Part shown: in pieces, positions 1-38,669 of the stretch
How positions within the stretch are numbered: position 1 is the stretch's first letter
How the letters are laid out: each line of letters opens with the position of its first letter
Assembly: GCF_007990755.1 (NCBI RefSeq)
Contig: NZ_BJXA01000079.1
Coordinates: 1 to 40,768, forward strand
Direction: 5' to 3'
Origin: Nocardia ninae NBRC 108245
GTDB lineage: Bacteria > Actinomycetota > Actinomycetes > Mycobacteriales > Mycobacteriaceae
Length of the DNA: 40,768 bases
The notes under the pieces: model-generated
Database searches by the model: none
What the model was told of the DNA's origin: nothing
The model's input: the letters and a program-made list of their open reading frames with translations, nothing else
Made by a program: the position numbers and the translations under genes

Positions 1-1167
1 GGTGGTGCCCTCGCACCGGCAGATGACGGTGTCGGGCCGGGTCCAGGTGAGCACACCGGGCCGGATCGGGTGCGCGGCCGCGAGGCGGGTCACGAATTGC
101 CCGGCCGTGCGGTGCCGCGCCAGCAGCGCACGGTCCGCGGTGCCGCCCGCTGCGGCCAGGCCCGCGACGGTCCCCTCGACAGCGGCGACCTGGGAGCCGC
201 CGATGCCGGTGATTTCCCCTGCGGCCCAGACGCATTCAGCGCTGGTCTGTTGCTTGTCGTCGACGTATACGAAGCCGTTCTCGGTCAGTCGCGCCCCTGC
301 CGCGACCGCGAGCTCGTGCTGCGGGGTGAATCCGTGCGAGACCGCGACCGCGTCCACCGCAATGGTGCGGTGGCTACCCGGGATCGGCGTCCAATTCGCG
401 TCGAGCCGGGCCACGGTGGCCTCTTCCGCTCGGCCGTCGCCCGCCACCGCGACGACCGCCTGCGCGGTGCGCAACGGAATCCGATGCCGCACACCGCATG
501 CCACGTACTCGAACAGTTCCAGGGTCTTGCCCGCACTGTGCCGCAGCTGCCAAGGACGGGTGGCCCAGTGTCGCAGGATCGTGCGGGCCGGGTTGGCTTC
601 CAACACTGCCCGCACCTCAGCCCCGTTCTCGGCCAGCGACTGTGCGACCGGAAGCAGGAACGGGCCGGTGCCGGACACCAATACGGACCGGCCGACCAGG
701 AGGCGCTGTGTCTTCGCGAGCGTCTGTGCGGCACCGGCGGTGTAGACACCGGGCAGGTCCCAGCCGGGGAACGGGCACGCCCGGTCGTAGGCGCCGGTGG
801 CGAGCACCAGCGCGTCGCCGCGGACTACCCGGTGCACCCGCCGGTCGCCCTCGGCGCCGATCAGCAATCGTACTGCGGGACAACCGCCTTCGGGGTGGCG
901 CTCGATCTGATAGACGGCGGCCGTAGGAAGGTACTCGCAGCGCGGATGCTCGATCAGCAGGCGTGCGCGGCGTGCGGCCGCCGCGTATCCGTGCCCGATG
1001 TCGAGCGGTTGCCGGATACCGTATGCGGCCGGGATGCGCCGGTTGTACTGGCCACCCAAGGCCTCGTTCGAGTCGATCAGGGTTACCGTCGCGCCGTGCC
1101 GCAGCGCGGATTCGGCGGCCGCGGTGCCTGCCGGACCACCGCCGATCACCACCACATGTCTGGTCAC
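1..1167 (-). CDS. FAD/NAD(P)-binding oxidoreductase with C-terminal [2Fe-2S] motif, alpha subunit of a hydroxyproline-type dehydrogenase (partial)
   Basis: The gene starts at GTG 1167 and is open to the window edge, so the 3' end is missing (389 codons seen). The N-terminus has a Rossmann FAD motif (VVVIGGGPAG, about residues 5-14). A second dinucleotide-binding stretch (SVLVSGTGPFLLP) lies near the middle. Near the edge, ICRCEGT is the start of the BFD-like [2Fe-2S] cysteine motif found in HcnB and opine/hydroxyproline dehydrogenase alpha subunits. In those families the subunit passes electrons from the substrate-oxidising beta subunit. Its start overlaps the stop of the small ferredoxin subunit by 4 bp (GTGA), which fixes the start and implies translational coupling. 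The FAD/[2Fe-2S] family is clear. The substrate is inferred from the neighbours. Confidence 0.85.
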   Translation of the reverse strand, partial: MTRHVVVIGGGPAGTAAAESALRHGATVTLIDSNEALGGQYNRRIPAAYGIRQPLDIGHGYAAAARRARLLIEHPRCEYLPTAAVYQIERHPEGGCPAVRLLIGAEGDRRVHRVVRGDALVLATGAYDRACPFPGWDLPGVYTAGAAQTLAKTQRLLVGRSVLVSGTGPFLLPVAQSLAENGAEVRAVLEANPARTILRHWATRPWQLRHSAGKTLELFEYVACGVRHRIPLRTAQAVVAVAGDGRAEEATVARLDANWTPIPGSHRTIAVDAVAVSHGFTPQHELAVAAGARLTENGFVYVDDKQQTSAECVWAAGEITGIGGSQVAAVEGTVAGLAAAGGTADRALLARHRTAGQFVTRLAAAHPIRPGVLTWTRPDTVICRCEGTT

Positions 1168-17772: not shown

Positions 17773-18612
17773 TTATTCGTCTCGGTCGTAATCGGCGATG
17801 CCGCGCTTCCAATACCCGGCGATCAGGTAGTCCTTCGCAGCGATGCCGAGGTCGTTGCGCACCCAGCGGCGCAGGGGCTTCAACACGCCCGACTCAGCGG
17901 CCAGCCACGCGTAAACCCGTTCTCCGGCAGGCACTTCGATACTGCGGACGGCCTTTTCGAAGGCGTCGCCGGTGCCGGGTTCGGCGTCGCCGCGATGCAC
18001 CCAGCGCACGTCGACAGCGGCGGGCGCATCGAGGGGAATCTCCTCCTCGGATCCGCGCACCTCGATGACCGCCCACCCGGATGCCGTGCGCGGCAACCAT
18101 TCCAGCCAGCGAGCGATGGCGGGCAGGGCGGTGATGTCACCGGCGAACAGATACTTGTCGTAGGTCTTCGGCACAACTTCACCGCCGGGCGGGCCCGCGA
18201 TGTGAATCCTGGTGCCCGGCTGCACCTGCAACGCCCACTCCGAGGCGAGACCGCCGGGGTGAATGGCGAAGTCGATATCGAGTTCGCGGTCCTCGGCGCT
18301 GAAGCGGCGGACCGTGTATTCGCGCGATACCGGTCGTGGCGAGCCCCATTGCAGGGAGAGCCCGTCTCTGCGGGGCAGCAGCAGCACACCCTGCTCGTCC
18401 GGAAAGATCAGGCGCACATGCTCATCCGGCACGTAGCTGTGGAATCCGGCGAGATCCTCGCCGCCGAAGGTGATGCGCAGCAGGCCGGCGCCGACCTTTT
18501 CGGTGCGGATCACCTCCACATCGCACAATCCGATCGGGTATCCGACTTTGGCCCCGTGCTCACTCGACAGCACCTCGACGATGCGTTCGGCGTAGGCGGC
18601 ACGATCCATCAT
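17773..18612 (-). CDS. Siderophore-interacting protein (FAD-dependent ferric-siderophore reductase)
   Basis: A 279-residue SIP-family protein. The FAD-binding motif SREYTVRRF (Arg97, Tyr99, Thr100, Arg102) sits at the end of the first beta-barrel. FAIHPGG and LFAGDITALPAIARWLE mark the NAD(P)H-binding half, and the C-terminus has the AAKDYLIAGYWKRG motif of the family. It reduces imported ferric siderophore in the cytoplasm to release Fe(II). Start ATG 18612 has AAAGGAG 6-12 nt upstream and overlaps the stop of the exporter gene by 4 bp. It is the last gene of the operon led by the NRPS, so it is expected to be iron-repressed. Confidence 0.93.
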   Translation of the reverse strand: MMDRAAYAERIVEVLSSEHGAKVGYPIGLCDVEVIRTEKVGAGLLRITFGGEDLAGFHSYVPDEHVRLIFPDEQGVLLLPRRDGLSLQWGSPRPVSREYTVRRFSAEDRELDIDFAIHPGGLASEWALQVQPGTRIHIAGPPGGEVVPKTYDKYLFAGDITALPAIARWLEWLPRTASGWAVIEVRGSEEEIPLDAPAAVDVRWVHRGDAEPGTGDAFEKAVRSIEVPAGERVYAWLAAESGVLKPLRRWVRNDLGIAAKDYLIAGYWKRGIADYDRDE

Positions 18613-19838
18613 GGCTTCTCCTTTCTCAACAGCGGCGCGGCGGCCAGCGACACCAACGCGACCAGTACCAATACGGATAGCCCGTAGGCCACGAGAGCGG
18701 TTCCAGGCGTGAAGAATTGGCCGACGACCCCGGCCACCATGGAGCCGATGGCGGCACCGGTGACGGACTGCACCATGAGCAGGCCCGAGATGCGGCCGCG
18801 CAGCTCCTCGGGAGCGTCCCGCTGCAGAATCGCGTAGCGCAGCACCATGTTCAACGCACGGGCCATGCCGAATCCGGCCAGGCCGAGGAATACCAGCGCG
18901 GCGTGCGGCGCGAGCCCGGCGACGATGACTCCGATCGGCATGAGCGCCAACGAGATCAGCAGGGCGAGGCCCGGACGGCGATTGCGGCCGATCCACCCGC
19001 TGGTGAGCGAGCCGAGTACCGCGCCGGCGCCGGGTGCGGCATAGAGCAGGCCGAGAGCGGTCTCCCCCACACCGAGTTCGTCCTCGGCCAAGGCGGGCAG
19101 CAATACCAGCGGACCGCTCACCATCATGGCGATGGTGCCGGTCAGCAGGGCCGCACGAATGACCTTGTGCCGGGCCGCGAACGCGATGCCGACGGCCAGC
19201 TCACGCAGCGGATGCGCGATCTCTCGCACGGGCGGCGGCTGTGGCCCGATGGACCGGATGAGTCCGACGGTGGCCGCAGTCGCGCCCGCACAGAGGAAGA
19301 ACGGCAGCGCCACACCGGTTTTCGCGATCAGCAAGCCGGCGATGGCTGGGGCGATCATGGTGCCCAGGTCGGTGGTGAGCGAGGTCAGCGCACCGGCGGC
19401 CGCCACCTTGTCCCGTCCCACCAGCATGGGGACGAGCGCCATGAGCGCCGATCCGCTGACCCCGCCGGCCAGGCCGTCGACCACGCCCGCGGCGTAGACG
19501 ACGACCAGCGACGGATGCGGCAGCAGCGCGTTCACACCGAGCACGAGAAACCCGAGACCGGCCGCGCTGCGCGACCATTGGATGACGTCGCGCCGGTCGA
19601 ACCGGTCCGCGATCACCCCGCCCGCCAGACTCCCGGCGAACAGGGCGATCGCGGTGACCGTGGTGACGCCGGCGACCTGCAGGGTCGATCCGGTGGCCTG
19701 GTAGACCTGCACGGGCAGGGCCACCATGAGCAGTCCGATACCGAGCACCGAGATCAACCGGGCCGCGAAAGCGTTGCGGAATTCCCGGCTGGCGCGCAGG
19801 GGCGAGGTATCGATCAGCAGGCCGCCGAGGAGTGTCAC
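18609..19838 (-). CDS. MFS exporter, EntS-like siderophore efflux
   Basis: A 409-residue major facilitator with about 12 hydrophobic segments and the MFS loop motif GGVIADRFDRRDV between TM2 and TM3. It resembles EntS-type exporters, which send newly made catecholate siderophore out of the cell. Start is GTG 19838, whose GTGA overlaps the stop of the binding-protein gene. Its own stop overlaps the reductase start. Position between the binding lipoprotein and the reductase, in one coupled operon, supports a role in export of the product of the NRPS. Confidence 0.88.
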   Translation of the reverse strand: MTLLGGLLIDTSPLRASREFRNAFAARLISVLGIGLLMVALPVQVYQATGSTLQVAGVTTVTAIALFAGSLAGGVIADRFDRRDVIQWSRSAAGLGFLVLGVNALLPHPSLVVVYAAGVVDGLAGGVSGSALMALVPMLVGRDKVAAAGALTSLTTDLGTMIAPAIAGLLIAKTGVALPFFLCAGATAATVGLIRSIGPQPPPVREIAHPLRELAVGIAFAARHKVIRAALLTGTIAMMVSGPLVLLPALAEDELGVGETALGLLYAAPGAGAVLGSLTSGWIGRNRRPGLALLISLALMPIGVIVAGLAPHAALVFLGLAGFGMARALNMVLRYAILQRDAPEELRGRISGLLMVQSVTGAAIGSMVAGVVGQFFTPGTALVAYGLSVLVLVALVSLAAAPLLRKEKP

Positions 19839-28107: not shown

Positions 28108-28935
28108 TCAGCTCACGCCCGCCGCGTTCTCCGCAAGCGGAATCACGAGTGGCGCACCGGTTTCCGGGTCGTCGATGATCCGGCAGCCGAGCGCGAAGAC
28201 CTCCTGCACCAACTCGGCGGTCGCGATCTCGCGCGGCGCACCGGCGGCGATCACCCGGCCGTCCCGCATGGCGATGAGGTGATCGGCGTAGCGGAAGGCG
28301 TGGTTCAGGTCATGCAGGACGGCGACCACGGTCCGGCCGGAGTTCCGGTTCAGCGAGCGGCACAGATCCAGCAGTTGGATCTGATGCGCGATATCCAGGT
28401 AGGTGGTCGGCTCGTCGAGCAGAATGATCGGCGTCTCCTGCGCCAGCACCATGGCGACCCAGACGCGTTGGCGCTGCCCACCGGAGAGCTCGTCCACCGA
28501 GCGGGCCGATAGGTCGGTGACGCCGGTGGCCGCCATGGCCGCGGTGACCGCGGCTTCGTCCGCCTGCGACCACTGGCGGAGCAGGGTCTGGTGCGGATAT
28601 CGGCCGCGCGCAACCAGATCCGCGACTCGGATGCCGTCCGGGGCGGTAGAGGATTGTGGGAGCAGACCGATGCGGCGGGCCACCTCCTTGGCTGGATAGT
28701 CGGTGATGGCCTTGCCGTCGAGCAGCACGGCACCGTCTTCCGGGGCGAGCAACCGAGCCAGCGCGCGCAGCATGGTGGATTTTCCGCAGGCATTGGGGCC
28801 GATGATCACCGTGAAGGCCCCGTCCGGAATATCCACCGAGAGCTGGTCACTGATGGTCCGGCCGCGATAGCCGAGGCGCACCCGGTCGGCCCGCAATCGG
28901 ACCCGATCCTGCTGTGCGCTGTGCTTCTCGTTCAT
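28108..28935 (-). CDS. fepC: Ferric-siderophore ABC transporter ATPase
   Basis: A 275-residue ABC ATPase of the FepC/FecE group. Walker A GPNACGKST, Q-loop LLPQSS, signature LSGGQRQRVW, Walker B IILLDEPTTYLD and switch His in VLHDLNHA are all intact. It powers uptake of ferric siderophore through the two FecCD permeases encoded just upstream. Start ATG 28935 has AGGGGA at 7-12 nt. An extended reading upstream would overlap the permease. Last gene of the uptake operon; a weak hairpin with a short T-tract near 28060-28090 may end it before the next iron box. Confidence 0.95.
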   Translation of the reverse strand: MNEKHSAQQDRVRLRADRVRLGYRGRTISDQLSVDIPDGAFTVIIGPNACGKSTMLRALARLLAPEDGAVLLDGKAITDYPAKEVARRIGLLPQSSTAPDGIRVADLVARGRYPHQTLLRQWSQADEAAVTAAMAATGVTDLSARSVDELSGGQRQRVWVAMVLAQETPIILLDEPTTYLDIAHQIQLLDLCRSLNRNSGRTVVAVLHDLNHAFRYADHLIAMRDGRVIAAGAPREIATAELVQEVFALGCRIIDDPETGAPLVIPLAENAAGVS

Positions 28936-28945
28936 CGTCGTTCCC

Positions 28946-29992
28946 CTAATTCCGTCGCGCCTCGGCGACCAGCACATATGCCAGATACACCCCGCCTACC
29001 GAGACGGTGACCACACCGACGGGCAGCGTGGTGGGTGCGAATATCCGCTGCGAGATCCAGTCGCAGGTCACCAGCAGCAGCGCACCCATGGCAGCGGCGG
29101 GAGCCAATGCGGTGGAGGCGGTGCGCGCCAGACGGCGGCCCAATTGCGGTGCGGCCAAAGCCAGGAAGGCGATGGGTCCGGCGACGGCCGTGGCGACGGA
29201 GCAGAACGCGACGCTCAGCACGATCAGTAGCACGCGGTCGCGTCCGACCCGGATGCCGAACGCCTGCGCCAGATCGTCACCCAATTCCAGGATGTGCAAG
29301 CGGGACGCGGTGGCGAGAGCGGCCACGCCGAGGACCGCCAGCAGGATGAGCGTGGGCGCGACCTGCGACGAGGTGGCCCTGCTCAGCGACCCCGCGCCCC
29401 AGGCGGCCGCCGACATGGCGGCGGTGAGATCGGCGCGCAGAATGAGCCAGGTATTGACCGAGGCCAGCATGGCGCTGACGCCGATGCCCACGATGATGAG
29501 CCGGAATCCGGTGACATTGTGCCGGAAGGCCAGCAGCTGAATGGCAAGGGCGGCAGCCAGTCCGCCGACGAACGCACCCGCCGAGGTTTGGAATCCGCCG
29601 CCGCCCAGCGTCAGCATGACGATGAGCGCACCGGTGTAAGCGCCGGTGTTGAAGCCGATCAGATCCGGGCTGCCGAGCGGATTGCGGGTCACCGATTGCA
29701 GGATGGCGCCGCTCACTCCGAGCGCCGCGCCCAACGCCAGGGCCAGCACCACGCGCGGAAGTCGCCAGTCCCACACCACGAGTCGGTCGAATCGCTGATC
29801 CCCGATGAACAGCGCGCGCAGCACCCGATCCGGTGGAATCGGGTAATCGCCGGTGCCGAGCGACAATACGGCCACGGCCAGTGCGGCGATGACGAGAATC
29901 GCGCACACCACCACGGTGCGCACACTCACCCGAACGGCGAGGCGCCGGGTTCGGACCACCAGCACCGAGTGCCCGAAATCGATGGCGGTCAT
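28946..29992 (-). CDS. fepG: FecCD-family ferric-siderophore permease (second subunit)
   Basis: A 348-residue polytopic permease with about nine to ten hydrophobic segments. Typical FecCD stretches are LPRVVLALALGAALGVSGA, QSVTRNPLGSPDLIG and GPIAFLALAAPQLGRR. The LGDDLAQAFGI segment is the cytoplasmic loop contacting the ATPase. ATG 29992 overlaps the preceding permease stop by 4 bp. It pairs with that gene product to make the heterodimeric channel. The FepG label is by order and resemblance. Confidence 0.93.
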   Translation of the reverse strand: MTAIDFGHSVLVVRTRRLAVRVSVRTVVVCAILVIAALAVAVLSLGTGDYPIPPDRVLRALFIGDQRFDRLVVWDWRLPRVVLALALGAALGVSGAILQSVTRNPLGSPDLIGFNTGAYTGALIVMLTLGGGGFQTSAGAFVGGLAAALAIQLLAFRHNVTGFRLIIVGIGVSAMLASVNTWLILRADLTAAMSAAAWGAGSLSRATSSQVAPTLILLAVLGVAALATASRLHILELGDDLAQAFGIRVGRDRVLLIVLSVAFCSVATAVAGPIAFLALAAPQLGRRLARTASTALAPAAAMGALLLVTCDWISQRIFAPTTLPVGVVTVSVGGVYLAYVLVAEARRN

Positions 29993-30999
29993 TGTTCGCT
30001 CACCCGGGTCCGCCGCGCCAGCCAGATCAGGATGGGTGCACCGAGGAAGGCGGTCACCAATCCCGCCGCCACTTCATCGGGCCGAACGAGTATGCGGCCC
30101 AGCATATCCGCGCCAAGCACCAGAATCGGCGCGAGCAGCATGGAGTAGGCGATGACCCAGCGCTGGTCGGGTCCGACGATCCAGCGGGCGATATGCGGCA
30201 CCGCCAAGCCGACGAAGGTGATCGGCCCCACCGCGGCGGTCGCGGTACCGCACAACAGGGTCAGCGACGTGACGGTGAGCAGCCGGGTCCGCCTGATGTG
30301 CACCCCCAGCGCGTGGGCGAGGTCGTCACCGAGGGCGACGGCATTGAGCGAGCGCGCGGCGATCACCGCCGCCACCAGGCCGATGAGAATGAACGGTGTG
30401 GCGCCGGTGATGACGTCGTAGCCGCGCCCGGTCAGCGCTCCGGCATCCCAGTTCCGCATATGGTCGAAGGCCTTGGGGTTCAGCAGTATCAACCCCTTGG
30501 TGAGTCCGGACAGCACGGCCGTGATGGCGACCCCCGCCAGCGTCAGCCGGACCGGATCCGTCCCCTGCCTGCCCGCGGTGCCCAGCCGGTAGACCACGAC
30601 CGAGGCCACTGCGGCACCGATGAACCCGAACCACACGTACGACGTGATCTCGGTGACTCCCAGAAAAGCGACCGCTATCGCGATGACGAAGGCCGCCCCG
30701 GCATTGATGCCGAGCAGTCCCGGATCGGCCAGCGGATTACGCGTCAGCCCCTGCATGAGGCAGCCGGCCACGCCGAGCGCGAGTCCGGCGAGCAGCCCGA
30801 GCAGCGTGCGCGGCACCCGGTACTCGGTGATGACCAGCGCGTCCGCCGACTCGCTTGCGTTCCAGAGCGCATCCCACACCTGCCCGGCCGGAATGGCCTT
30901 GGTCCCGATCATGAGACTGAGCAAGCAGGCAGCGATCAGTACGGCAGCCGCCAGCAGCCACCCCGGCCAGCGCCTAGGCCGTACGCGCATACCTTCCAT
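29989..30999 (-). CDS. fepD: FecCD-family ferric-siderophore permease (first subunit)
   Basis: A 336-residue FecCD permease. VPRTLLGLLAGLALGVAGC, QGLTRNPLADPGLLGINAG and GPITFVGLAVPHIARW are the conserved family segments, and LGDDLAHALGVHI is the ATPase-contact loop. ATG 30999 gives the usual family length, with GGAG 13-16 nt upstream. An in-frame TTG at 31083 is possible but adds a poor 28-residue tail. First gene of the uptake operon; the iron box at 31094-31112 is its likely operator. Confidence 0.92.
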   Translation of the reverse strand: MEGMRVRPRRWPGWLLAAAVLIAACLLSLMIGTKAIPAGQVWDALWNASESADALVITEYRVPRTLLGLLAGLALGVAGCLMQGLTRNPLADPGLLGINAGAAFVIAIAVAFLGVTEITSYVWFGFIGAAVASVVVYRLGTAGRQGTDPVRLTLAGVAITAVLSGLTKGLILLNPKAFDHMRNWDAGALTGRGYDVITGATPFILIGLVAAVIAARSLNAVALGDDLAHALGVHIRRTRLLTVTSLTLLCGTATAAVGPITFVGLAVPHIARWIVGPDQRWVIAYSMLLAPILVLGADMLGRILVRPDEVAAGLVTAFLGAPILIWLARRTRVSEQ

Positions 31000-31093
31000 C
31001 TGGTAATTTCTCCACGACTTCCGAGCTGTAGCAGGGCCTCCGAGAAGGTTTCGCCGGTCAGGCGCAGGGTCTCCATCGATCAAGCCTTAAAAT

Positions 31094-31112
31094 TTAGGTT
31101 TGCCTACCCTAG
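31094..31112. promoter_or_regulatory. Iron box for the uptake operon, overlapping the STAND gene stop codon
   Basis: TTAGGTTTGCCTACCCTAG matches the iron-box consensus at about 15-16 of 19 positions, counting the central G/C as free. It is about 95 bp upstream of the first permease ATG. The TAG stop of the upstream STAND gene (31109-31111) is part of the box. Confidence 0.8.
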
Positions 31113-33838
31113 CGTGTTATCTCGTCCGGCAGTAATCGCCCAGTAGGACGATCGGATGGACCGAGGCGGCGGTAGCTGTCGATGGCGTGGCGCGGATGGG
31201 CGGTGTCGCCGAGGGCGGCGCGGCAGCGGACGATGCCTTCCATGGCGCTGGCCTGTTGGATCCGGCTGTCGATATCGCCGGCCACGCGCAGCGCGTGGGT
31301 GAACATCGTCAAGGCCTCACCCGGCTCGCCGGCCGCCAACAGCGCCTTCGCGGTGTTGTTCAATGCCTCGACTTCCTGGACGCGGTAGCCGGTCTCGCGC
31401 AACAGGACCAGGGCTTGCCGGGAGAGGTCGGTGGCCTGCTCGTGGTTCCCGGTTTCGCGGCACACGGTGCTGAGGTTGACGAGTGCGTCGGCTTCCCCGA
31501 TGCGGTTGCCGGTCTCCCGGAACAAGATCAGGGCTTGCCGGGATAGGTCGGTGGCTTGCCGGTAATCCCCGGTGTCGCGGCGCACCTTGCCGAGGCAGCT
31601 GAGGGCTCTGGCTTCGCCGAGGCGGTAGCCGGCCTCCCGAAACAGAGTTGCGGCGCGCAGCAGCAAGTCGGCGGCCTGCCCGTAGTCCCCGGTGTACCGG
31701 CGCACGGTGCCGAGGAAGCCCAGGGCGCTGGCTTCGCCGAGGCGATGACCGATCTCCCGGTACCGGGACAGAACTTGTTGGAACAGCTGCGCGGCTTGCT
31801 CGTAGTCGCCGGTGTCTCGGCGCACGCCGCCAAGGCTGGCGAGGGTTCTGGCTTCGCCGAGGAGATAACCGATGTCTCGGTACAGGATCAAGGCCTGCCG
31901 AAGTAGGTCGGCAGCCTGGTCGTAGTTTCCGGTCTGCCACTGCACCATGCCGAGGTTGCGGAGCGCGTTGGCTTCGCCGAGGGGGTGGCCGGTCTCCCGG
32001 TACAGGGTCAGCACTTGCTGGAGTAGGTCGGTGTCTTGGTCGTAGTTCCCGCTCTGCCACTGCACGGTGGCGAGGTTGGTGAGGGCGTTGGCGCGGCCGA
32101 GGCGGTCGTCGAGACGGTCCGCGGCCGCGGCGGCGCGCTCGTGCCAGCGAAGGGCCAGTGACCACGGCCCCTCGCGCTCCAGAAATTCGGCCAGCACCTC
32201 GGTCAGCCCGACCATCCGCGCTGGGTCGCGGTCGGCGGTGTATTCGAGACAGGCGAGCAGGGTGGTTCGCTCCATCCGCAGCCACGCCAGCGCGTGCGTC
32301 TCGTCGCCGAATTCCGGCAAGACGGCACCGGCTGTGCCGGAGGTGCGCTGGTAATCGGTGGGGCGGGGCTTGTGGGTCAGCCATTGGTCCGCCGCTGCGG
32401 CGGTGCTCAGGTAGTAGTCCAGCAATCGCTGCACCGGCGCGGTGCCGTCGCTGGACGACGCGGCGAGGGCGCGCGCGTATTCGCGGACCAGGTCGTGCAA
32501 GCAGTAGCGGCCGGGTGTGGTCTCCTCGACCAGGTGGTCGGTGTACAGCGCATCGAGTTCGGTGCGTGCCTCGGCAAGCGGTATGTCGTTCAGCGCGGCG
32601 ACGGCGTAGGCGTCGAAGTCGGTGCCGGGGTGTAGTCCCAGCGTGCGGAACAGTTGCTGCCTGCCGGGTGGCAGGTTTTCGTAGGAAGCGGTGAACGCGG
32701 CACGCACCGCGCGTTGACCGGCGTCGAGTTCACCGAGCCGGTCCTGGGCGGCGCGGAACTGTTCGGCCAGTCCGGCGAGCGTCCACACCGGATGGTGAGC
32801 GGTTCGGCCGGCCAGTAGCACGATCGCCAGTGGTAAATACCCACAGAGCCGGACGATCTCGGCGACGGCCGCGATGTCCTCGCCCTGTGGGTTGCGTTGC
32901 GCCAGCCGGCAGAACAGGTCTTTCGCCGTGTCGGGGTCGAGGGTGTCCAGTGGTAGTGGGAGGGCGCTGTCGAGGGCGACGAGCCGACGGCGGCTGGTGA
33001 TCAAGGTGAGGCATTCGGGTCCGGTGGGCAGCAGCGGTTCGATTTGGTTGTGGTCGCGGGCGTCGTCGAGGATCAGCAGCACTCGTTTGGCGGCGACGCG
33101 GTCGCGCCACAGGTCACGGCGGGCGTCGAGGGTATCGGGGATGTGGCTGGGTGCGATGCCGAGGCCGGTGAGCAGGGTGGCCAGCACCTCGGCGGGATCC
33201 GCGGGCTCCTGTCCGGGGGTGTGGGTGTTCAGTTCGACGAAGAACCGGCCGTCGGGAAACGAATCCGACAGCAGGTGCGCCGCATGGGTGACCAACGTGG
33301 TTTTCCCGACGCCGGGCATGCCGTCGACAGTGTGGATGGCGACCACCCGGCCCGGTCCTGCCGCATCCAGGATCCGCTGCACCTCGACCTCACGCCCGAC
33401 GAAGGTGGGGACATCCCGTCGCAGCGAGGTCAGCACCGTGGGACGGACCGGCTGGGTGCTGGCCGCCTTCCACAGATGCCGCCAGGCCGACCGGTTCGAC
33501 AAGGGTGCGGGGACGGGACCGGACGCTTGCCGGGCCAGCGAAATCAGTGTCACCAGCACCGGATCCAGCGATTCGAAGCGGGAGGGCACGTTGCGCCCGG
33601 TCCGCCAATCGCTGATGCGCTGCATCAACGACCGATGGCTCTGTGCCGGTGTGCGGGCGGCCTTCCTGCGTTCCTCGGTCGCCGCCGCGACCCGCGCCAG
33701 CGTCGGATTGCCTGCGGCCTCCCAGAGTTCGGCGAACCTGGCCACGAATAGCGCTCGTGGCGAAGTGTCTTCGCCGCTGCCCCCGTTCCGACCGGTCTCG
33801 CTCGTCTCACCGCACACAACAACACACGATAGGGGCAT
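31109..33838 (-). CDS. STAND (NB-ARC) ATPase with N-terminal HTH-like region and TPR repeats
   Basis: A 909-residue protein. Residues about 30-105 resemble the XRE-like leader common in actinobacterial STAND proteins (RISDWRTGRNVPSRFESL at 74-91). FVGRE (146-150) opens the NB-ARC unit, with Walker A MPGVGKTTL (174-182), Walker B RVLLILDDA (252-260) and the GxP-like motif CGYLPLAIVLL (332-342). A helical arm follows, then six or seven 40-residue TPRs (about 575-860). Such proteins are nucleotide-switched signal sensors and act as transcription regulators or immune effectors. No SARP domain or toxin-like effector domain is seen. The start is uncertain: ATG 33838 begins at sensible protein but lacks a ribosome site, and a GATCC/GGATC inverted repeat lies against it. 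It sits 97 bp after dhbE on the same strand. Confidence 0.85.
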   Translation of the reverse strand: MPLSCVVVCGETSETGRNGGSGEDTSPRALFVARFAELWEAAGNPTLARVAAATEERRKAARTPAQSHRSLMQRISDWRTGRNVPSRFESLDPVLVTLISLARQASGPVPAPLSNRSAWRHLWKAASTQPVRPTVLTSLRRDVPTFVGREVEVQRILDAAGPGRVVAIHTVDGMPGVGKTTLVTHAAHLLSDSFPDGRFFVELNTHTPGQEPADPAEVLATLLTGLGIAPSHIPDTLDARRDLWRDRVAAKRVLLILDDARDHNQIEPLLPTGPECLTLITSRRRLVALDSALPLPLDTLDPDTAKDLFCRLAQRNPQGEDIAAVAEIVRLCGYLPLAIVLLAGRTAHHPVWTLAGLAEQFRAAQDRLGELDAGQRAVRAAFTASYENLPPGRQQLFRTLGLHPGTDFDAYAVAALNDIPLAEARTELDALYTDHLVEETTPGRYCLHDLVREYARALAASSSDGTAPVQRLLDYYLSTAAAADQWLTHKPRPTDYQRTSGTAGAVLPEFGDETHALAWLRMERTTLLACLEYTADRDPARMVGLTEVLAEFLEREGPWSLALRWHERAAAAADRLDDRLGRANALTNLATVQWQSGNYDQDTDLLQQVLTLYRETGHPLGEANALRNLGMVQWQTGNYDQAADLLRQALILYRDIGYLLGEARTLASLGGVRRDTGDYEQAAQLFQQVLSRYREIGHRLGEASALGFLGTVRRYTGDYGQAADLLLRAATLFREAGYRLGEARALSCLGKVRRDTGDYRQATDLSRQALILFRETGNRIGEADALVNLSTVCRETGNHEQATDLSRQALVLLRETGYRVQEVEALNNTAKALLAAGEPGEALTMFTHALRVAGDIDSRIQQASAMEGIVRCRAALGDTAHPRHAIDSYRRLGPSDRPTGRLLPDEITR
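31262..32104. repeat. Array of 120-bp units encoding TPRs in the STAND protein
   Basis: About seven consecutive 120-bp (40-codon) units, each starting near LGEAxAL and ending near YRETGxR. Six are close to one another in sequence; the last is diverged. Similarity at the DNA level is enough to allow unequal recombination and change in repeat number. Confidence 0.75.
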
Positions 33839-33935
33839 GATCCGTCGATTGTGGATCCGAGCTTGCCCACTGTCGCTCCCCGATAGCGCCTGAGCCCGAC
33901 ATAGCGACTGCGGCTCCTGTCGCGATCGGCCTGGG

Positions 33936-35579
33936 TCAGGTTGCGGTCGCTTGCATGGCGAGCGCTGCGCGTAGGGAGCGGCGGCTGATCTTGCCGACGC
34001 CGGTCTCCGGGAAGCTGTCCACCACTTGGAGCAGATCGGGAATCTTCCAAGTGGCCACGCCGCGCTCCCGCACGAACTGGCGGATCTGGCCCAGTGCGGG
34101 CGGCGTCGTCGGGTCGGCCGCCAGTACGAACACACAGCTGCGCTCGCCGAGTCGCTCGTCGGGCACCGAGACGACGATGGCGTCGCGAATCAACGGATGA
34201 TCGAGCAGATGCGCCTCGATCTCCTCGGCCGAGATCTTCTCGCCGCCGCGGTTCACGCGGTCGCCGAGCCTGCCCTTGACCACGAGGTTGCCGTCCGCGC
34301 GCAGGTTGACGACGTCGCCGGTGCGGTACCAGCCGTCCTCGGTGAACGACGACGCATTGGCCTCGGGATTACGGTAGTAGCCGCGAATCGTGTACGGCCC
34401 CTTGGTGATCAGCAGTCCGTCGGTACCGGGCGGTACCGGGTTCCCCGCTTCGTCGACCACCGCGACCTGATCGTGCTCGGACATCGGGCGGCCCTGGGTC
34501 GAGAGCACCACCTCTTCCGGGTCGTCGAGCCGGGTGTAGCAGACCAGGCCCTCGGCCATGCCGAACACCTGCTGCAGGGTGGCGCCGAGGGCGGGTCCGA
34601 TGCGGCGGGCCAGCTCGTCCGGGCAGCGGGCGCCACCGACGAGCAGCACCCGCAGGCTCGAAATGTCGTACTTGCTACTGGCTTCCGCGCGTTCGACCCA
34701 GAGCCGGGCGAGCGGCGGGACCAGGCCGCTGATGGTGACCCCGAACCGTTCGATCGCTTGGAACGCGGTGGTGGGGGAGGGGTCGATGGCCAGCGCCACG
34801 GTGCCGCCCGCGTACAGCGCACCCAGAATTCCCGGCGAACTCATCGGGAAGTTGTGCGCCACCGGCAACGCCGCGAGGTAGACGCTGGTGCTGTCGAGCT
34901 GGCAGAGCTCCGCGCTGCGGCGCACGCTGTAGAGGTAGTCGTCGTGCGTGCGCGGAATGAGTTTCGGTGTTCCGGTGCTGCCGCCGGACAGCTGCAGGAA
35001 CGCGATATCGGCGGCGGCCACCGTCGGCAGGTCGCGCGGGGCGGCCCGCAGGTCGTCGAGGGCGCGGATGCCGCCGGGCAGTGCGGTTCCGTCGTTGTCC
35101 GGGACAACGATCACGTGCCGCAGGTCCGGGGCGTGGTCACGCAGAATCGCGGCGAGGGTGGCGTGATTGAACCTCTGGTGGTGGTGGCAGGTGACGGCGG
35201 CCACCGCGCCGCTGGCCTGCGCGATCGGGACCAGCTCGGACTGCCGGTGCGCGGGCAGGCAGAAGACCGGCAGCGCACCCGCGTAGAAGAGGCCGAAGAT
35301 CACCTCGACGAATTCGGCGATGTTGGGCAGCTGGACCAACACCCGATCACCAGGCTGGATGCCGAGTTCGAGGAAGCCGGACGCCAGCGATGTGGCGCGC
35401 TGCTCGAGCTCGGCGTACGTCCAGCGGTTCCGGTCGTCTACCACGGCGATCGCGTTCGGCGTTGTGCCTGCGCGCGAGCTGAGCATGTCGCCGAAGGTCT
35501 CGCCGGTCCAGTACCCCAGCTCGCGGTATTGCGTGGCTTCGGTTGCCGGCCAAGGGGTTAGGTCGGATTGAGACGGCAC
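33936..35579 (-). CDS. dhbE: 2,3-dihydroxybenzoate-AMP ligase
   Basis: A 547-residue stand-alone aryl adenylation enzyme. The P-loop is LSGGSTGTPKLIPRTH (198-212). The aryl pocket AHNFPMSSPG (His242, Asn243, Ser248) and GMAEGLVCYTR (Val346) carry the Asn, Ser and Val seen in 2,3-DHB-activating DhbE; salicylate enzymes such as YbtE have Cys where Ser248 is. The late motif GRLGDRVNRGGEKISAEE and catalytic Lys in GVGKISRR are present. It makes DHB-AMP and loads the aryl carrier protein. GTG 35579 has AAGGAG 9-14 nt upstream. It is divergent from dhbA across a 68-bp gap holding one iron box. The STAND gene lies downstream. Confidence 0.95.
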   Translation of the reverse strand: MPSQSDLTPWPATEATQYRELGYWTGETFGDMLSSRAGTTPNAIAVVDDRNRWTYAELEQRATSLASGFLELGIQPGDRVLVQLPNIAEFVEVIFGLFYAGALPVFCLPAHRQSELVPIAQASGAVAAVTCHHHQRFNHATLAAILRDHAPDLRHVIVVPDNDGTALPGGIRALDDLRAAPRDLPTVAAADIAFLQLSGGSTGTPKLIPRTHDDYLYSVRRSAELCQLDSTSVYLAALPVAHNFPMSSPGILGALYAGGTVALAIDPSPTTAFQAIERFGVTISGLVPPLARLWVERAEASSKYDISSLRVLLVGGARCPDELARRIGPALGATLQQVFGMAEGLVCYTRLDDPEEVVLSTQGRPMSEHDQVAVVDEAGNPVPPGTDGLLITKGPYTIRGYYRNPEANASSFTEDGWYRTGDVVNLRADGNLVVKGRLGDRVNRGGEKISAEEIEAHLLDHPLIRDAIVVSVPDERLGERSCVFVLAADPTTPPALGQIRQFVRERGVATWKIPDLLQVVDSFPETGVGKISRRSLRAALAMQATAT

Positions 35580-35629: not shown

Positions 35630-35648
35630 TAAGGTTAGGCTAAGCATA
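35630..35648. promoter_or_regulatory. Iron box shared by divergent dhbE and dhbA
   Basis: TAAGGTTAGGCTAAGCATA matches the consensus at 15 of 19 positions. The last base is the A of the dhbA ATG. It is 51 bp from the dhbE start. One DtxR/IdeR dimer pair here could silence both directions. Confidence 0.82.
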
Positions 35649-36457
35649 TGTCTAGGGAGAGTAAAGCCGGTAGCGGTGTGATAGTCACCGGCGCCGCCGG
35701 TGGCATCGGCCGAGCGGCGGCGGAGATCTTCGCGGCCAGGTCGGCGGCACCGGTGGTGCTGTGGGACCAGGATCCGGCGGTGCACGACACCGCCGGCGAG
35801 ATCCGCGCGACCCGAGCGGCGAGCATCACGCATGCGGAACAGGTCGATGTGACCGACGCCGACTCTGTCGACCGCGCCTTCGCTGCCGCCATCGATCGTA
35901 TCGGCCCGATCGACGCCGTCGTACATGCGGCGGGCGTCCTGGAAACCGGTGCGGTGTCGGAATTGACCGGGGCGCAATGGGATCGGTGCCTGGCGGTGAA
36001 CGCCACCGGGACGATGAACGTCACCCGCCGGGCCGCCGCGGTGCTCGCCGCGAACGGCGGCGGCTCGATCGTGGTCGTCACCTCGAACGCGGCGACGACG
36101 CCTCGGGTCGGGATGGCCGCCTACGGTGCGTCCAAGGCGGCGGCGACGGCCTTCGCCATGGCGCTCGGCCTGGAGGTGGCCGCCGCGGGTGTCCGGGTGA
36201 ACGTGGTGTCACCGGGCTCCACCGACACGCCCATGCTGCGCGGCATGTGGACCGAGGACGCGGCCGAATTGTCCGCAGCTGCCCGCGATCACGTCTTGGC
36301 GGGTGACCCGGCGAACTTCCGGCTCGGCATCCCGTTGCGCCGGGTGGCGCAGCCCGAGGACGTCGCCGAGAGCATCTACTTCCTGACATCCCCCGGTGCC
36401 CGGCACATCACCATGCACGACCTGCGCGTCGACGGCGGCGCCACCTTCGACGCGTGA
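35648..36457 (+). CDS. dhbA: 2,3-dihydro-2,3-dihydroxybenzoate dehydrogenase
   Basis: A 269-residue short-chain dehydrogenase of the EntA/DhbA family. Cofactor motif VTGAAGGIG (13-21), HAAG (94-97) in place of NAAG, catalytic Ser147, Tyr160 and Lys164 (YGASK), and the C-terminal GGATFDA. It oxidises the diol made by isochorismatase to 2,3-DHB with NAD+. ATG 35648 lies against the iron box. No ribosome site fits, so the message may be leaderless, or translation may begin at a GTG nearer the Rossmann strand. First gene of the operon dhbA, dhbB, ArCP. Confidence 0.92.
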   Translation: MSRESKAGSGVIVTGAAGGIGRAAAEIFAARSAAPVVLWDQDPAVHDTAGEIRATRAASITHAEQVDVTDADSVDRAFAAAIDRIGPIDAVVHAAGVLETGAVSELTGAQWDRCLAVNATGTMNVTRRAAAVLAANGGGSIVVVTSNAATTPRVGMAAYGASKAAATAFAMALGLEVAAAGVRVNVVSPGSTDTPMLRGMWTEDAAELSAAARDHVLAGDPANFRLGIPLRRVAQPEDVAESIYFLTSPGARHITMHDLRVDGGATFDA

Positions 36458-36487: not shown

Positions 36488-37135
36488 TTGGCCATCCCGC
36501 CGATAGCGCCGTACTCGATTCCGGCGCGCGAGGACGTCGAGGCGAATCAGGTGCCGTGGTCGCTGGATCCGTCGAGGTCCGCGCTGCTGATCCACGATAT
36601 GCAGCGCTACTTCATCGACGCCTACCAGCCCGACCTCGACCCGATCGCGACCGTCACCGCGAACATCGCGCGCCTGCGCGAGCAGTGCAACGCGGCAGGC
36701 GTCCCGGTGATCTACACCATGCAGCCCGGCGACCAGCATCCCTCGCGCCGTGGCATTCTCGCGGACTTCTGGGGCAGCGGACTGAGCAACGGCCCGTCCG
36801 CCGCGATCATCGACCAACTGGCGCCCGGCCCGGCCGATATCCAGGTCACCAAGTGGCGCTACTCCGCCTTCCAGCGGACCGACCTGCGCGAGTTGCTCAA
36901 TCACTACAACCGCGATCAGCTCGTCATCACCGGCGTGTACGCCCACATGGGTTGCATGCTCAGCGCCGCGGACGCGTTCATGAACGACATCAAGCCGTTC
37001 GTGGTGCTGGACGCGACCGCGGACTTCGGGCGCGACGAGCACGTGATGGCCATGAACTATGTCGCGCGCCGCTGTGGCGCGGTGACCACCACCGACGCGC
37101 TGGAATTCGCGCTGCGGCAATCGAATGCGGCCTGA
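36488..37135 (+). CDS. dhbB: Isochorismatase, stand-alone
   Basis: A 215-residue isochorismatase. Asp37 (LLIHDMQ), Lys122 (VTKWRYSAF) and the [11 protein letters not shown] segment around Gly155 match the catalytic layout of EntB. It cleaves the pyruvyl group from isochorismate. EntB and most DhbB proteins are about 285-310 residues, with a C-terminal aryl carrier domain; here that domain is missing and encoded by the next gene. Start is TTG 36488, supported by AGGAGA 8-13 nt upstream. Confidence 0.93.
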
Positions 37136-37163
37136 TCAGGCGCTGGAAATCTCGAGGAGAAAC

Positions 37164-37412
37164 ATGAGCGAGCCGGTTACCTTCGGCCGCCAGGACGTGA
37201 TCGCCGATGTCGCGGCCGCGTTGGGTGTGGCACCACACGAGGTGCCTGAAGACGCGGATCTGACCGACGCGGGTTTGGATTCGGTGCGGCTGATGTCGCT
37301 GGTCGAGAAGTGGCGGTCCGGTGGGGCGGAGCAGGCGGACTTCGCGACCTTGGCGGCCGAGCCGGTGCTGAGCGCCTGGCTCGATGTTCTCGTGCCTGCG
37401 GATCAGTCCTGA
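37164..37412 (+). CDS. Aryl carrier protein, stand-alone
   Basis: An 82-residue carrier protein. The phosphopantetheine site is Ser40 in AGLDSVRLM. The helix after it (LVEKW) is the usual partner-binding helix of the ArCP of EntB. It takes DHB from DhbE and presents it to C1 of the NRPS. ATG 37164 has GAGGAG 5-10 nt upstream. In-frame codons before it overlap dhbB and are not used. Last gene of the operon, with a strong terminator 269 bp downstream. Confidence 0.93.
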   Translation: MSEPVTFGRQDVIADVAAALGVAPHEVPEDADLTDAGLDSVRLMSLVEKWRSGGAEQADFATLAAEPVLSAWLDVLVPADQS

Positions 37413-37790
37413 CCGACGAGCCTGCGGTTTCGCTCGTCACGGACTGCCGGCCCGACTGGGCGCGTTTCCCCAGTTGCACCATGACAGGTTCGTCGTGATC
37501 GGACCACACGGCCTCGGCTACCCGCAGGGTGGCACGGAACACACCCACGGTCTTTCGTTCTCGCCGCTGGCCGTTGTCGCGGTTCGGACCGGTGAGATCG
37601 TCCGCTCCTTCGCGCGGTGCTCGGTAGCGGGCGTCCGCGCCGAATATGCCGTTGAGCGGGCTGGAAGGTAGCCCGACAGCTGCGCCGCAGGCCGTCGGCC
37701 TGCGGCGCAATCGGACAACCCGATGTCCGCGGGGGCATCCGGGGCGCCTCCGTGTACTCGGACCCAGAAATGCGGCCAGAAACGTACCTG
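37413..37790. other. Intergenic stretch after the ArCP gene, no credible gene
   Basis: About 270 bp lie between the ArCP stop and a terminator at 37681. Open frames exist on both strands, but none has a ribosome site or family resemblance. It could be the worn-out remnant of a small gene, since intergenic spaces elsewhere in this cluster are short. From 37710 to 37790 nothing is seen before the next promoter. Confidence 0.4.
37681..37709 (+). terminator. Terminator of the dhbA-dhbB-ArCP operon
   Basis: Perfect 13-bp stem (TGCGCCGCAGGCC) with a 3-nt loop. It separates the operon from the iron-boxed gene downstream. Confidence 0.75.
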
Positions 37791-37818
37791 TTGACAGGTT
37801 TAGGTCTGCCTAACCTAA
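37791..37818 (+). promoter_or_regulatory. -35 element plus iron box before the glycine-zipper protein gene
   Basis: TTGACA at 37791-37796 is a consensus -35. The iron box TTAGGTCTGCCTAACCTAA at 37800-37818 matches at 16-17 of 19 positions and fills the -35/-10 spacer, with CCTAAG as a possible -10. It is the best iron box in the window. Bound DtxR/IdeR would block RNA polymerase directly. Confidence 0.88.
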
Positions 37819-37857
37819 GCTCAACGCATCCCGACCACACCTGAGAAGGAATTAAGA

Positions 37858-38574
37858 ATGTTGATGAGGAACTTTGCCGCGACGGCCTCGCTGCTGATCG
37901 CCGCGTTAGGCGTCACGGCCGGCACGGTCAACGCGGCACCGGCGGCGGAAGCCGACGCGCCGATCAATTTCACCGCCGAGACCACCGACACCCAGGCCAT
38001 CGTCTCCCTGGACGCGGGCTCGCTCGTGGTCGAGGACGGCGCGCTGAAGATCAAGGCCGCCAACGGCAATGTCGTCGCGGGCACCCCGCTGCAGTTCCGG
38101 CTCGACGACTTCACCTTCCCGATCGCCGCGGACATCTCCGGCCGCACCGCGAAGCTGACCCCGCAGCTGGACATGGGCAAGGCCGTTTACACCCCGGTCG
38201 CCATGCCCTTCGAGGACAAGGCCCCCTGGAAGACCGAGTACGACCGTGAGCAGGCTGCCTGGAGCCGGATGACGGCCACCATCAGCCTCGGCGCCAGCAT
38301 CGCGACCCTGGTCGGCGGCATCGGTGGCGCGGCCGTCGGCTGTGTCCTCGGCGGCGTCGTCGGCGGTGCCGTGATCGGTGGCACCATCGTCGGCCTGTTC
38401 GGTCCGTTCCTTGGTGGTATCGCCGCGGGTTGCCTCGCCGGCGCGGCCGCCATGGGCGCCCTCGGCACGGTCGCGGGCCAGATCTTCATCACCGCTCCGG
38501 TGGCGATCGGCGCGGTGATCCAGTACTTCACCACGATCAACCAGCCGTTCAACCCGCCGGCTCCGGCCAAGTAG
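37858..38574 (+). CDS. Iron-box-controlled secreted protein with a glycine-zipper membrane region
   Basis: A 238-residue protein of no family I can name with function. The signal peptide ends at VNA-AP after residue 26. Residues about 35-115 are a beta-rich soluble domain (LDAGSLVVEDGALKI, LDDFTFPIA). A charged stretch follows (EDKAPWKTEYDREQ). Then comes a Gly/Ala-rich hydrophobic region (about 141-225) full of GxxxG pairs (GGIGGAAVG, GGVVGGAVIGG, GGIAAG), and a Pro-rich tail. The layout resembles the many Nocardia/Rhodococcus secreted proteins with a DUF8020-like head. AGAAGGA 8-14 nt before ATG 37858 fits well. The preceding iron box predicts strong induction under iron starvation, together with the siderophore genes. 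A mycomembrane-associated role in iron uptake is inferred. Confidence 0.88.
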   Translation: MLMRNFAATASLLIAALGVTAGTVNAAPAAEADAPINFTAETTDTQAIVSLDAGSLVVEDGALKIKAANGNVVAGTPLQFRLDDFTFPIAADISGRTAKLTPQLDMGKAVYTPVAMPFEDKAPWKTEYDREQAAWSRMTATISLGASIATLVGGIGGAAVGCVLGGVVGGAVIGGTIVGLFGPFLGGIAAGCLAGAAAMGALGTVAGQIFITAPVAIGAVIQYFTTINQPFNPPAPAK

Positions 38575-38598
38575 TTCCGGCTGGCTGCACAGATATAG

Positions 38599-38626
38599 GT
38601 CAGGCCCCGCTTCGGCGGGGCCTGAC
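38599..38626. terminator. Strong terminator between the glycine-zipper gene and the LysR gene
   Basis: Perfect 12-bp stem (GTCAGGCCCCGC) with a TTCG loop, followed on the plus strand by TTGTTCT. It lies between convergent genes and can serve both. Confidence 0.85.
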
Positions 38627-38669
38627 TTGTTCTACGCGCTGTCGCCGGGACCGGGAGTGCGGCTGGTCG

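Follow-up and report, generated by a model that had tools for sequence, protein, structure and literature searches.

How siderophores cross the outer membrane of Mycobacterium tuberculosis is described as unclear in parts of two reports (PMC7058343; PMC9042941). MspA-family proteins form cell-wall channels in the mycolata, and NfpA and NfpB of Nocardia farcinica give channels only when both are present, according to part of a third report (PMC9233653). Here we describe a gene of Nocardia ninae NBRC 108245 that encodes a secreted glycine-zipper protein (the zipper protein) and lies under an iron box beside genes for a catechol siderophore. The gene is located in a stretch of 40,768 nucleotides (nt) (contig NZ_BJXA01000079.1, called the window throughout), numbered C79 among the 204 contigs that make up the 9.7-Mb genome. 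A preliminary description, made from the letters of the window alone, had assigned the protein a plausible part in moving ferric siderophores across the mycomembrane.

Several described proteins resemble the zipper protein in part. Like the MspA-family porins (PF09203; NfpA and NfpB of N. farcinica, MspA-D of M. smegmatis), it carries a Sec-type signal peptide, judged by eye, and in sister lineages the two occupy the same iron-boxed slot beside the importer gene fepD. Unlike these porins, it has no PF09203 match, it is predicted to combine a helical hairpin with a beta sandwich rather than to form a beta-barrel subunit, and it is encoded by a single gene rather than a tandem pair. PPE transporters have the PPE fold and type VII export. 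Among them PPE4, PPE36/62, PPE37 and PPE64 are, in part of one report, non-classical mycomembrane proteins for iron nutrients (PMC12802285); the zipper protein differs from these in its Sec-type signal peptide, and no sequence relation to them was seen. EsxE-EsxF, helical proteins bearing GXXXG/AXXXA motifs, form pores in a mycolate bacterium but, unlike the zipper protein, are WXG100 proteins serving toxin export (PMC7810871, in part). The closest precedent for regulation is MspD of M. smegmatis, a mycomembrane protein induced by metal starvation, although MspD is a true MspA-type porin and is concerned with zinc rather than siderophores (PMC13098993, in part). Among the open-licence literature we saw nothing on the zipper family; searches pairing the glycine zipper with siderophores gave no work on a mycolate bacterium, judged by title, those pairing it with Nocardia gave Aeromonas work only, and those for an iron-limited Nocardia proteome gave nothing of use, again judged by title.

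Linkage of the zipper gene to catechol siderophore loci

We examined the surroundings of zipper genes at loci of relatives (L-numbers; G-numbers denote genomes and C-numbers contigs of the N. ninae genome). All box scores are out of 19 and were measured against the DtxR/IdeR-type consensus TTAGGTTAGGCTAACCTAA. DhbB (E 1e-70 or better) was found in 60 of 150 Nocardia genomes, and 59 loci were fetched besides the window, some of them short at contig ends. The ten loci with a DhbB match of at least 85%, together with the window, all carry a zipper gene in the same orientation 0.5-1.8 kb downstream (11/11), with a box of 15 to 17 just before it, in the same place in 10/10 orthologues. The remaining 49 dhb loci include only two, L165 and L179, with a zipper gene within 7 kb downstream, in both cases on the opposite strand and unboxed. 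These two (L165:2783-3472 and L179:6206-6901) are second zipper genes, and both genomes (G066 and G148) also have a boxed copy beside fepD. The 5' side (4-22 kb) was covered for 40 of the 49 loci; 18 of these carry a zipper gene there, each with a box of at least 14/19 within 400 nt.

Alternation of zipper genes and MspA-type porins beside fepD

Of these 40 loci, 37 contain fepD, and the other three (L197, L199 and L215) have neither a zipper gene nor a porin in the stretch. Among the 37, a tally that does not include the window's own class, 16 hold a zipper gene only, 19 a porin pair only, two both and none neither (Fisher p 1.2e-8, uncorrected for relatedness). In 16 loci a zipper gene that most resembles the L080 type stands divergent beside fepD, with 101-530 nt between the matches (the L205 stretch is cut by a contig end). 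In L195 and L196 it lies directly before fepD on the same strand; these copies are about 40% identical and form a separate lineage in the tree, a 16/19 box precedes them, the 700 nt before the fepD match hold no box of at least 14/19, and the gap between the two genes contains a hairpin-like sequence, by eye. In all 19 porin-only loci a tandem pair is divergent from fepD at a distance of 88-654 nt, and PF09203 scored above its cut-off in all six porins scanned (four first and two second genes, from four loci). In L216 and L218 a zipper gene preceded by a 15/19 box is followed by the porins, which have a 13-14/19 box-like sequence before them. Loose searches for the zipper in porin loci and for porins in zipper loci returned only weak matches (E above 0.1), and the searches revealed no MspA pair in the window or in L136-L145, L026, L036, L047, L051, L070, L074, L076 and L080.

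The linkage between zipper gene and siderophore genes therefore recurs in three gene arrangements, and zipper genes exchange with porins in one promoter slot on the fepD side. The notion that every dhb locus needs a zipper protein was rejected, as 19/37 fepD loci are porin-only. Boxes of the divergent class were likewise rejected as independent proof of iron control, since fepD has a box of its own; because the box of the divergent class also serves fepD, independent box evidence comes solely from the L195/L196 class and that of the window.

Twelve dhb-positive genomes without a linked zipper gene were compared (11 porin-only, and G046, which has no fepD in the stretch). Among their 121 family matches, no box of at least 16/19 was seen by eye within 1 kb. 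As this cut-off would miss boxes of 14-15/19, about 500 nt upstream were taken for 40 of the 121 matches, where the best box score was 12/19. As a separate observation, a carbonic anhydrase (PF00194) gene at L025:1792-2724 lies near a 16/19 iron box, and the sequence of that box, ATAGGTCAGGCTTACCTAA, recurs in 7/12 of these genomes.

A tree of FepD plus FepG with 40 rows (the 37 loci, the window, L026 and L047) placed the zipper-only loci L206, L217 and L220 and the porin-only loci L221-L224 as supported sister groups (98/91 and 100/97, fork 98/92), with the both-bearing L216 and L218 just outside the fork. The simplest reading of these relationships is that an ancestor near the fork had both genes and that one or the other was lost. 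In addition, an MspA-type porin gene at L219:3319-3948 (minus strand) opens with a zipper-type leader and a KFTK start. The L219 leader gave local scores of 84 (L213), 68 (L203), 51, 48, 43 and 30 to six zipper leaders, the best two over about 180 nt, and of 39, 33, 16 and 12 to four porins, in the coding part; uneven as this comparison is, the L219 leader is probably a trace of exchange within the leader.

Promoter and iron box of the window gene

The preliminary description had put the strongest iron box of the window (16-17 of 19) before this gene, inside a TTGACA promoter. The box (Table 1) is indeed the best of three sites in the window: a scan with up to three mismatches gave four matches at these sites and none in 100 shuffles. 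Across the genome, the same scan gave 11 matches at nine sites, with none in the reversed control, and the box ties with one site on contig C47 as the best. The consensus picks out real iron-regulon sites, for its matches elsewhere in the genome adjoin, among others, genes for a SIP reductase, a Peripla_BP_2 protein and a thioesterase with GNAT. The box lies 39 nt before the ATG. The candidate -35 hexamer TTGACA, which ends 3 nt before the box, recurs in 10/11 orthologous promoters (L142 has TTGAAA), CCTAAGCT in the candidate -10 region is conserved in 11/11, and CCCGACCACACC in the 5' leader in 10/11; a strict sigma-70 scan called no promoter at the zipper gene. A box is therefore present in the promoter and kept in the orthologues, as for members of a DtxR/IdeR-type regulon. 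The genome has nine matches to PF01325 (DtxR-type regulators), two of them strong (78.0 and 75.6 bits, cut-off 26); this model also matches in 13/14 control genomes and thus does not single out an iron regulator. The gene looks monocistronic in the window because a stable hairpin comes after it, although a consensus terminator scan did not call this hairpin.

Architecture and conservation of the zipper protein

Comparison of the zipper gene with five orthologues gave nonsynonymous divergence (dN) of 0.06-0.10 against synonymous divergence (dS) of 0.31-0.54, that is, purifying selection. The features given in the preliminary description, an uncharacterised protein with a signal peptide, a beta-rich head and a zipper with many GxxxG pairs, were borne out. 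At the cleavage region, A26 and P28 are at least 90% conserved in the alignment. Residues 30-122 were modelled as an eight-strand beta domain with a mean predicted local distance difference test score (pLDDT) of 91.7 and a predicted template modelling score (pTM) of 0.77. Residues 139-226 contain 11 GxxxG pairs against a mean of 5.06 in shuffles (0.12% of 5000 shuffles reach 11), while small-xxx-small pairs in the same residues are not enriched (21 against 18.0 in shuffles, 14%). The full-length model, in which the C-terminal half is predicted to be helical, is of low confidence (pLDDT 63.3, pTM 0.36).

The profile search and structure prediction proposed in the preliminary description gave a good model of the beta head and no usable relative. 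The window protein matched no Pfam family up to E 5, MspA (PF09203) included, and the 62 aligned members matched five Pfam families in all (up to E 0.01), MspA not among them. The glycine-zipper family PF13441 matched two of the 62, both distant paralogues and both below the cut-off, and did not match the window protein. A search of PDB sequences gave best E values of 1.6 (single protein) and 0.072 (profile), and comparison of the beta head, a candidate alpha-crystallin/CS-like beta sandwich, with the PDB gave no match above noise. An NCBIfam match to LpfA (E 5e-4, 19.6 bits, cut-off 221) was set aside as chance.

These features bear on two alternative roles. The first is that of a helper that assists siderophore export or import from the periplasm, similar to Rv0455c, a soluble, disulfide-cinched helical protein needed for secretion. 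Parts of the report on Rv0455c (DUF5078; siderophore secretion in M. tuberculosis) describe a helical bundle that resides in the periplasm and has an essential disulfide (PMC9042941), and the zipper protein shares several traits with it: both proteins are small, exported, tied to siderophores and found in a mycolate host, both have two important or conserved cysteines, and the zipper gene has an iron box and adjoins siderophore genes including that of an EntS-type exporter. However, DUF5078 matched neither the window protein nor the aligned members, as it is not among the five families (its presence in the Pfam copy was not separately checked). The zipper protein, for which a site in the mycomembrane rather than the periplasm is proposed here, has a beta head, its long Gly/Ala-rich hydrophobic hairpin is unlike a soluble protein, and its gene swaps with a porin rather than an exporter. 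We therefore regard this role as improbable. Still further down the scale, and very unlikely in our judgement, is a secreted membrane-active effector of the alpha-pore-forming type, released against other cells in iron starvation: the slot is shared with porins and an importer, the model is of low confidence, and no immunity gene was noticed alongside, though none was searched for.

Distribution of the family and exchange of mature domains

Zipper-family members are widespread in Nocardia (137/150 genomes, E 1e-60 or better), and a search across the bacterial family to which Nocardia belongs found one in 177/301 sampled genomes and 20/31 genera (E 1e-5 or better). The best 80 relatives in named genomes are all from Nocardia. 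No relative was found in phages; eight plasmid records hold relatives, one from Nocardia and seven from Rhodococcus. N. ninae itself has eight family matches, of which only the window copy has an iron box; the paralogues on C35 (80% identical) and C14 (68%) have none.

For the box survey, 80 Nocardia loci were kept of 293 relatives. Eight have a box of at least 14/19 within 400 nt, against a background of 13 in 3338 segments of 410 nt. Seven of the eight adjoin dhbE/A/B, and the eighth, L080, adjoins a dhbB that reads in two frames. This two-frame gene (L080:9244-9625, N. panacis) is probably broken or reflects a sequencing error. A different palindrome, CTAGA-N9-TCTAG, lies 36-37 nt before the zipper start in 18/80 loci, all unboxed (L027-L030, L032-L035, L042, L043, L045, L046, L048-L050, L054, L058 and L075), and likewise before the C35 copy (L010); it is likely a different operator.

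In trees, the class of the window falls within a set of unboxed paralogues, and the placement of the N. altamirensis copy (L051/L142) suggested a separate recruitment. Comparison by segment instead favoured gene conversion, and separate recruitment was rejected. The promoter and signal peptide of L142 match the iron-boxed type: its residues 1-40 are 68-78% identical to four class members and 55-56% to its own unboxed paralogues, whereas residues 41-238 are 78-95% identical, by segment, to those paralogues and 67-78% to class members. This conversion points to a general mature domain under special regulation.

Siderophore genes of the window

The window cluster (Table 1) comprises catechol synthesis, an EntS-type exporter that scores over its cut-off, and import by FepB/D/G/C with a SIP-like protein; it is otherwise without an outer-layer component. 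The zipper gene does adjoin these siderophore genes, but the earlier term "complete" was too strong for the locus, in which an N-monooxygenase gene survives only as remnants. That gene, whose product in a relative matches TIGR04439 at 175 bits (cut-off 700), sits between the aryl carrier protein gene or dhbB and the zipper gene in L137, L138, L140, L142, L144 and L145; there was no match in L136 and L139 (L141 and L143 lay outside the test). These deletion remnants suggest that the siderophore made by the window genes no longer involves a hydroxamate-type step. As the zipper gene and its promoter are intact after this loss, the role of the zipper protein is independent of the N-monooxygenase product.

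A further open reading frame of 1008 residues, resembling an ATPase/TPR-repeat regulator by eye, occupies 31109-34135 (minus strand) between fepD and dhbE, with a 16/19 box beside it (31094). It is present in L026 (90%) and has no match in L047, where fepD and dhbE adjoin.

Table 1. Coordinates of the zipper gene, its control elements and neighbouring siderophore genes in the window.
Feature	Position	Strand	Basis
TTGACA, candidate -35 hexamer	37791..37796	+	read directly
Iron box, 19 bp, palindromic, DtxR/IdeR-type	37800..37818	.	17/19 on - reading, 16/19 on + reading
TAAGCT, candidate -10	37816..37821	+	19-nt spacer from TTGACA; overlaps iron box
Conserved 5' leader CATCCCGACCACACC	37827..37841	+	conserved in orthologous promoters
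Secreted glycine-zipper protein, 238 residues (P0001)	37858..38574	+	open reading frame
Signal peptide, Sec-type, residues 1-26 (VNA/AP), without lipobox	37858..37935	+	by eye
Beta head, residues 38-102	37969..38163	+	model of residues 30-122
Glycine-zipper helical hairpin, residues 127-175 and 184-228	38236..38541	+	low-confidence model; GxxxG excess
Cys162, conserved	38341..38343	+	kept in 72/76 aligned members, L145 left out
Cys192, conserved	38431..38433	+	kept in 73/76 aligned members, L145 left out
Terminator-like hairpin 3' of zipper gene	38591..38633	+	-34.5 kcal/mol, z -6.45
N-monooxygenase gene remnants	37429..37668	+	tblastn pieces 37429-37503 and 37468-37668
Aryl carrier protein (ArCP)	37125..37412	+	name from context; no NCBIfam match
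dhbB-like, isochorismatase-type hydrolase	36488..37135	+	name from context; weak RutB and hydrolase matches below cut-offs
dhbA (2,3-dihydro-2,3-dihydroxybenzoate dehydrogenase)	35648..36457	+	TIGR04316 ranks first, 272 bits, cut-off 300
dhbE (2,3-dihydroxybenzoate-AMP ligase)	33936..35579	-	TIGR02275 ranks first, 695 bits, cut-off 723.6
fepD, fepG, fepC ferric-siderophore importer	28108..31083	-	siderophore-importer models first for FepD/FepC, below cut-offs; FepG by similarity
EntS-type siderophore exporter	18609..19838	-	NF007792, 443.9 bits, cut-off 324

Proposed role of the zipper protein

The absence of an outer-layer component from the rest of the cluster, the presence of MspA porins beside fepD in sister lineages and the channel-forming nature of MspA-type proteins in the cell wall together lead us to propose that the zipper protein functions in siderophore passage through the mycomembrane, either in place of MspA-type porins or alongside them, a proposal to which we give an even chance. 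Under this proposal, low iron would release DtxR/IdeR-type repression at the box and turn on the zipper gene together with the catechol siderophore genes. The product, an exported envelope protein, would keep its folded beta head in the periplasm or on the cell surface. Its C-terminal glycine-zipper hairpin would enter a membrane, most probably the mycomembrane, and form oligomers. The zipper protein would then let the ferric (or apo) catechol siderophore pass the outer layer, while the inner side would be handled by FepB, FepDGC and a reductase, and inner-membrane export by the EntS-type pump. The zipper protein may thus fill the role of the tandem MspA-family porin pair in sister Nocardia lineages. 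A more specific version, which we put forward only tentatively and consider rather unlikely, is a helical, non-barrel mycomembrane channel passing the ferric catechol siderophore, which would be a glycine-zipper oligomer whose beta head lies in the periplasm or at the surface and would have replaced the MspA-type pair in several Nocardia lineages.

A number of observations weigh against passage as the role. MspA-type porins are, to our knowledge, not proven to carry siderophores. Iron boxes are missing from most of the homologues examined (72/80 loci and 40/40 more score at most 12/19), and in a second genus of the bacterial family 0/20 dhbE-type loci hold a member (20 of 26 places, 20 kb each). 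Many dhb-positive species have porins instead of the zipper protein, and fepD is boxed in 19/19 porin-only loci, which explains the box in the divergent class. In the window's own class, fepD (in the window, L026 and L047) has neither a zipper gene nor porins adjoining it, and the zipper gene lies beside dhb; the fepD region of most other members of this class falls outside the fetched stretch. The independent switches are few, with six label changes of which three are forced by well-supported branches (zipper label), and in the L219 comparison four zipper leaders reach scores of just 30-51, the lowest of which is exceeded by the best porin. The full-length model is poor, and the hairpin of L145 (G031) is 38 residues shorter in-frame and lacks both cysteines, which is either a natural variant or an assembly collapse. 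Finally, since mature domains are exchanged between boxed and unboxed paralogues, the mature protein need not know the siderophore, and this exchange favours a membrane function of a general kind that has come under iron control, and argues against a siderophore-specific receptor or carrier.

The last point leads to the alternative of a general envelope protein, in which the family would stabilise or remodel the mycolate layer and the window copy would be iron-controlled so as to adjust the envelope in iron starvation, with no siderophore path itself. The size of the family with its many unboxed copies, the exchange of mature domains and the nesting of the window's class among unboxed paralogues are all as this alternative would have it, but it leaves unexplained both the alternation with MspA porins in the fepD slot and the occurrence of iron-boxed copies of three types beside siderophore genes; on balance, we consider it unlikely. 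For siderophore passage, the link that the preliminary description had drawn is strengthened by the three arrangements and the porin alternation, while the role itself stays conditional and a dedicated carrier is argued against by the mature-domain exchange. That description had also taken homologues spread with no link to iron boxes or siderophore genes as evidence against its reading, and here the survey is divided: boxed copies adjoin catechol siderophore genes (11/11 of the window type and 18/40 others), while most homologues are unboxed.

These loci constitute a natural experiment, in which two unrelated protein types alternate in one iron-controlled position beside a ferric-siderophore importer. 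Because one of the alternating types is a known outer-membrane pore family, the question of how siderophores cross this layer becomes directly testable. The alternation also offers a first clue to the function of a family present in more than half of the genomes sampled from the bacterial family (177/301). If the non-barrel channel proved true, mycolate bacteria would have a large, unnamed family of outer-layer channels, with the zipper protein as its first member.
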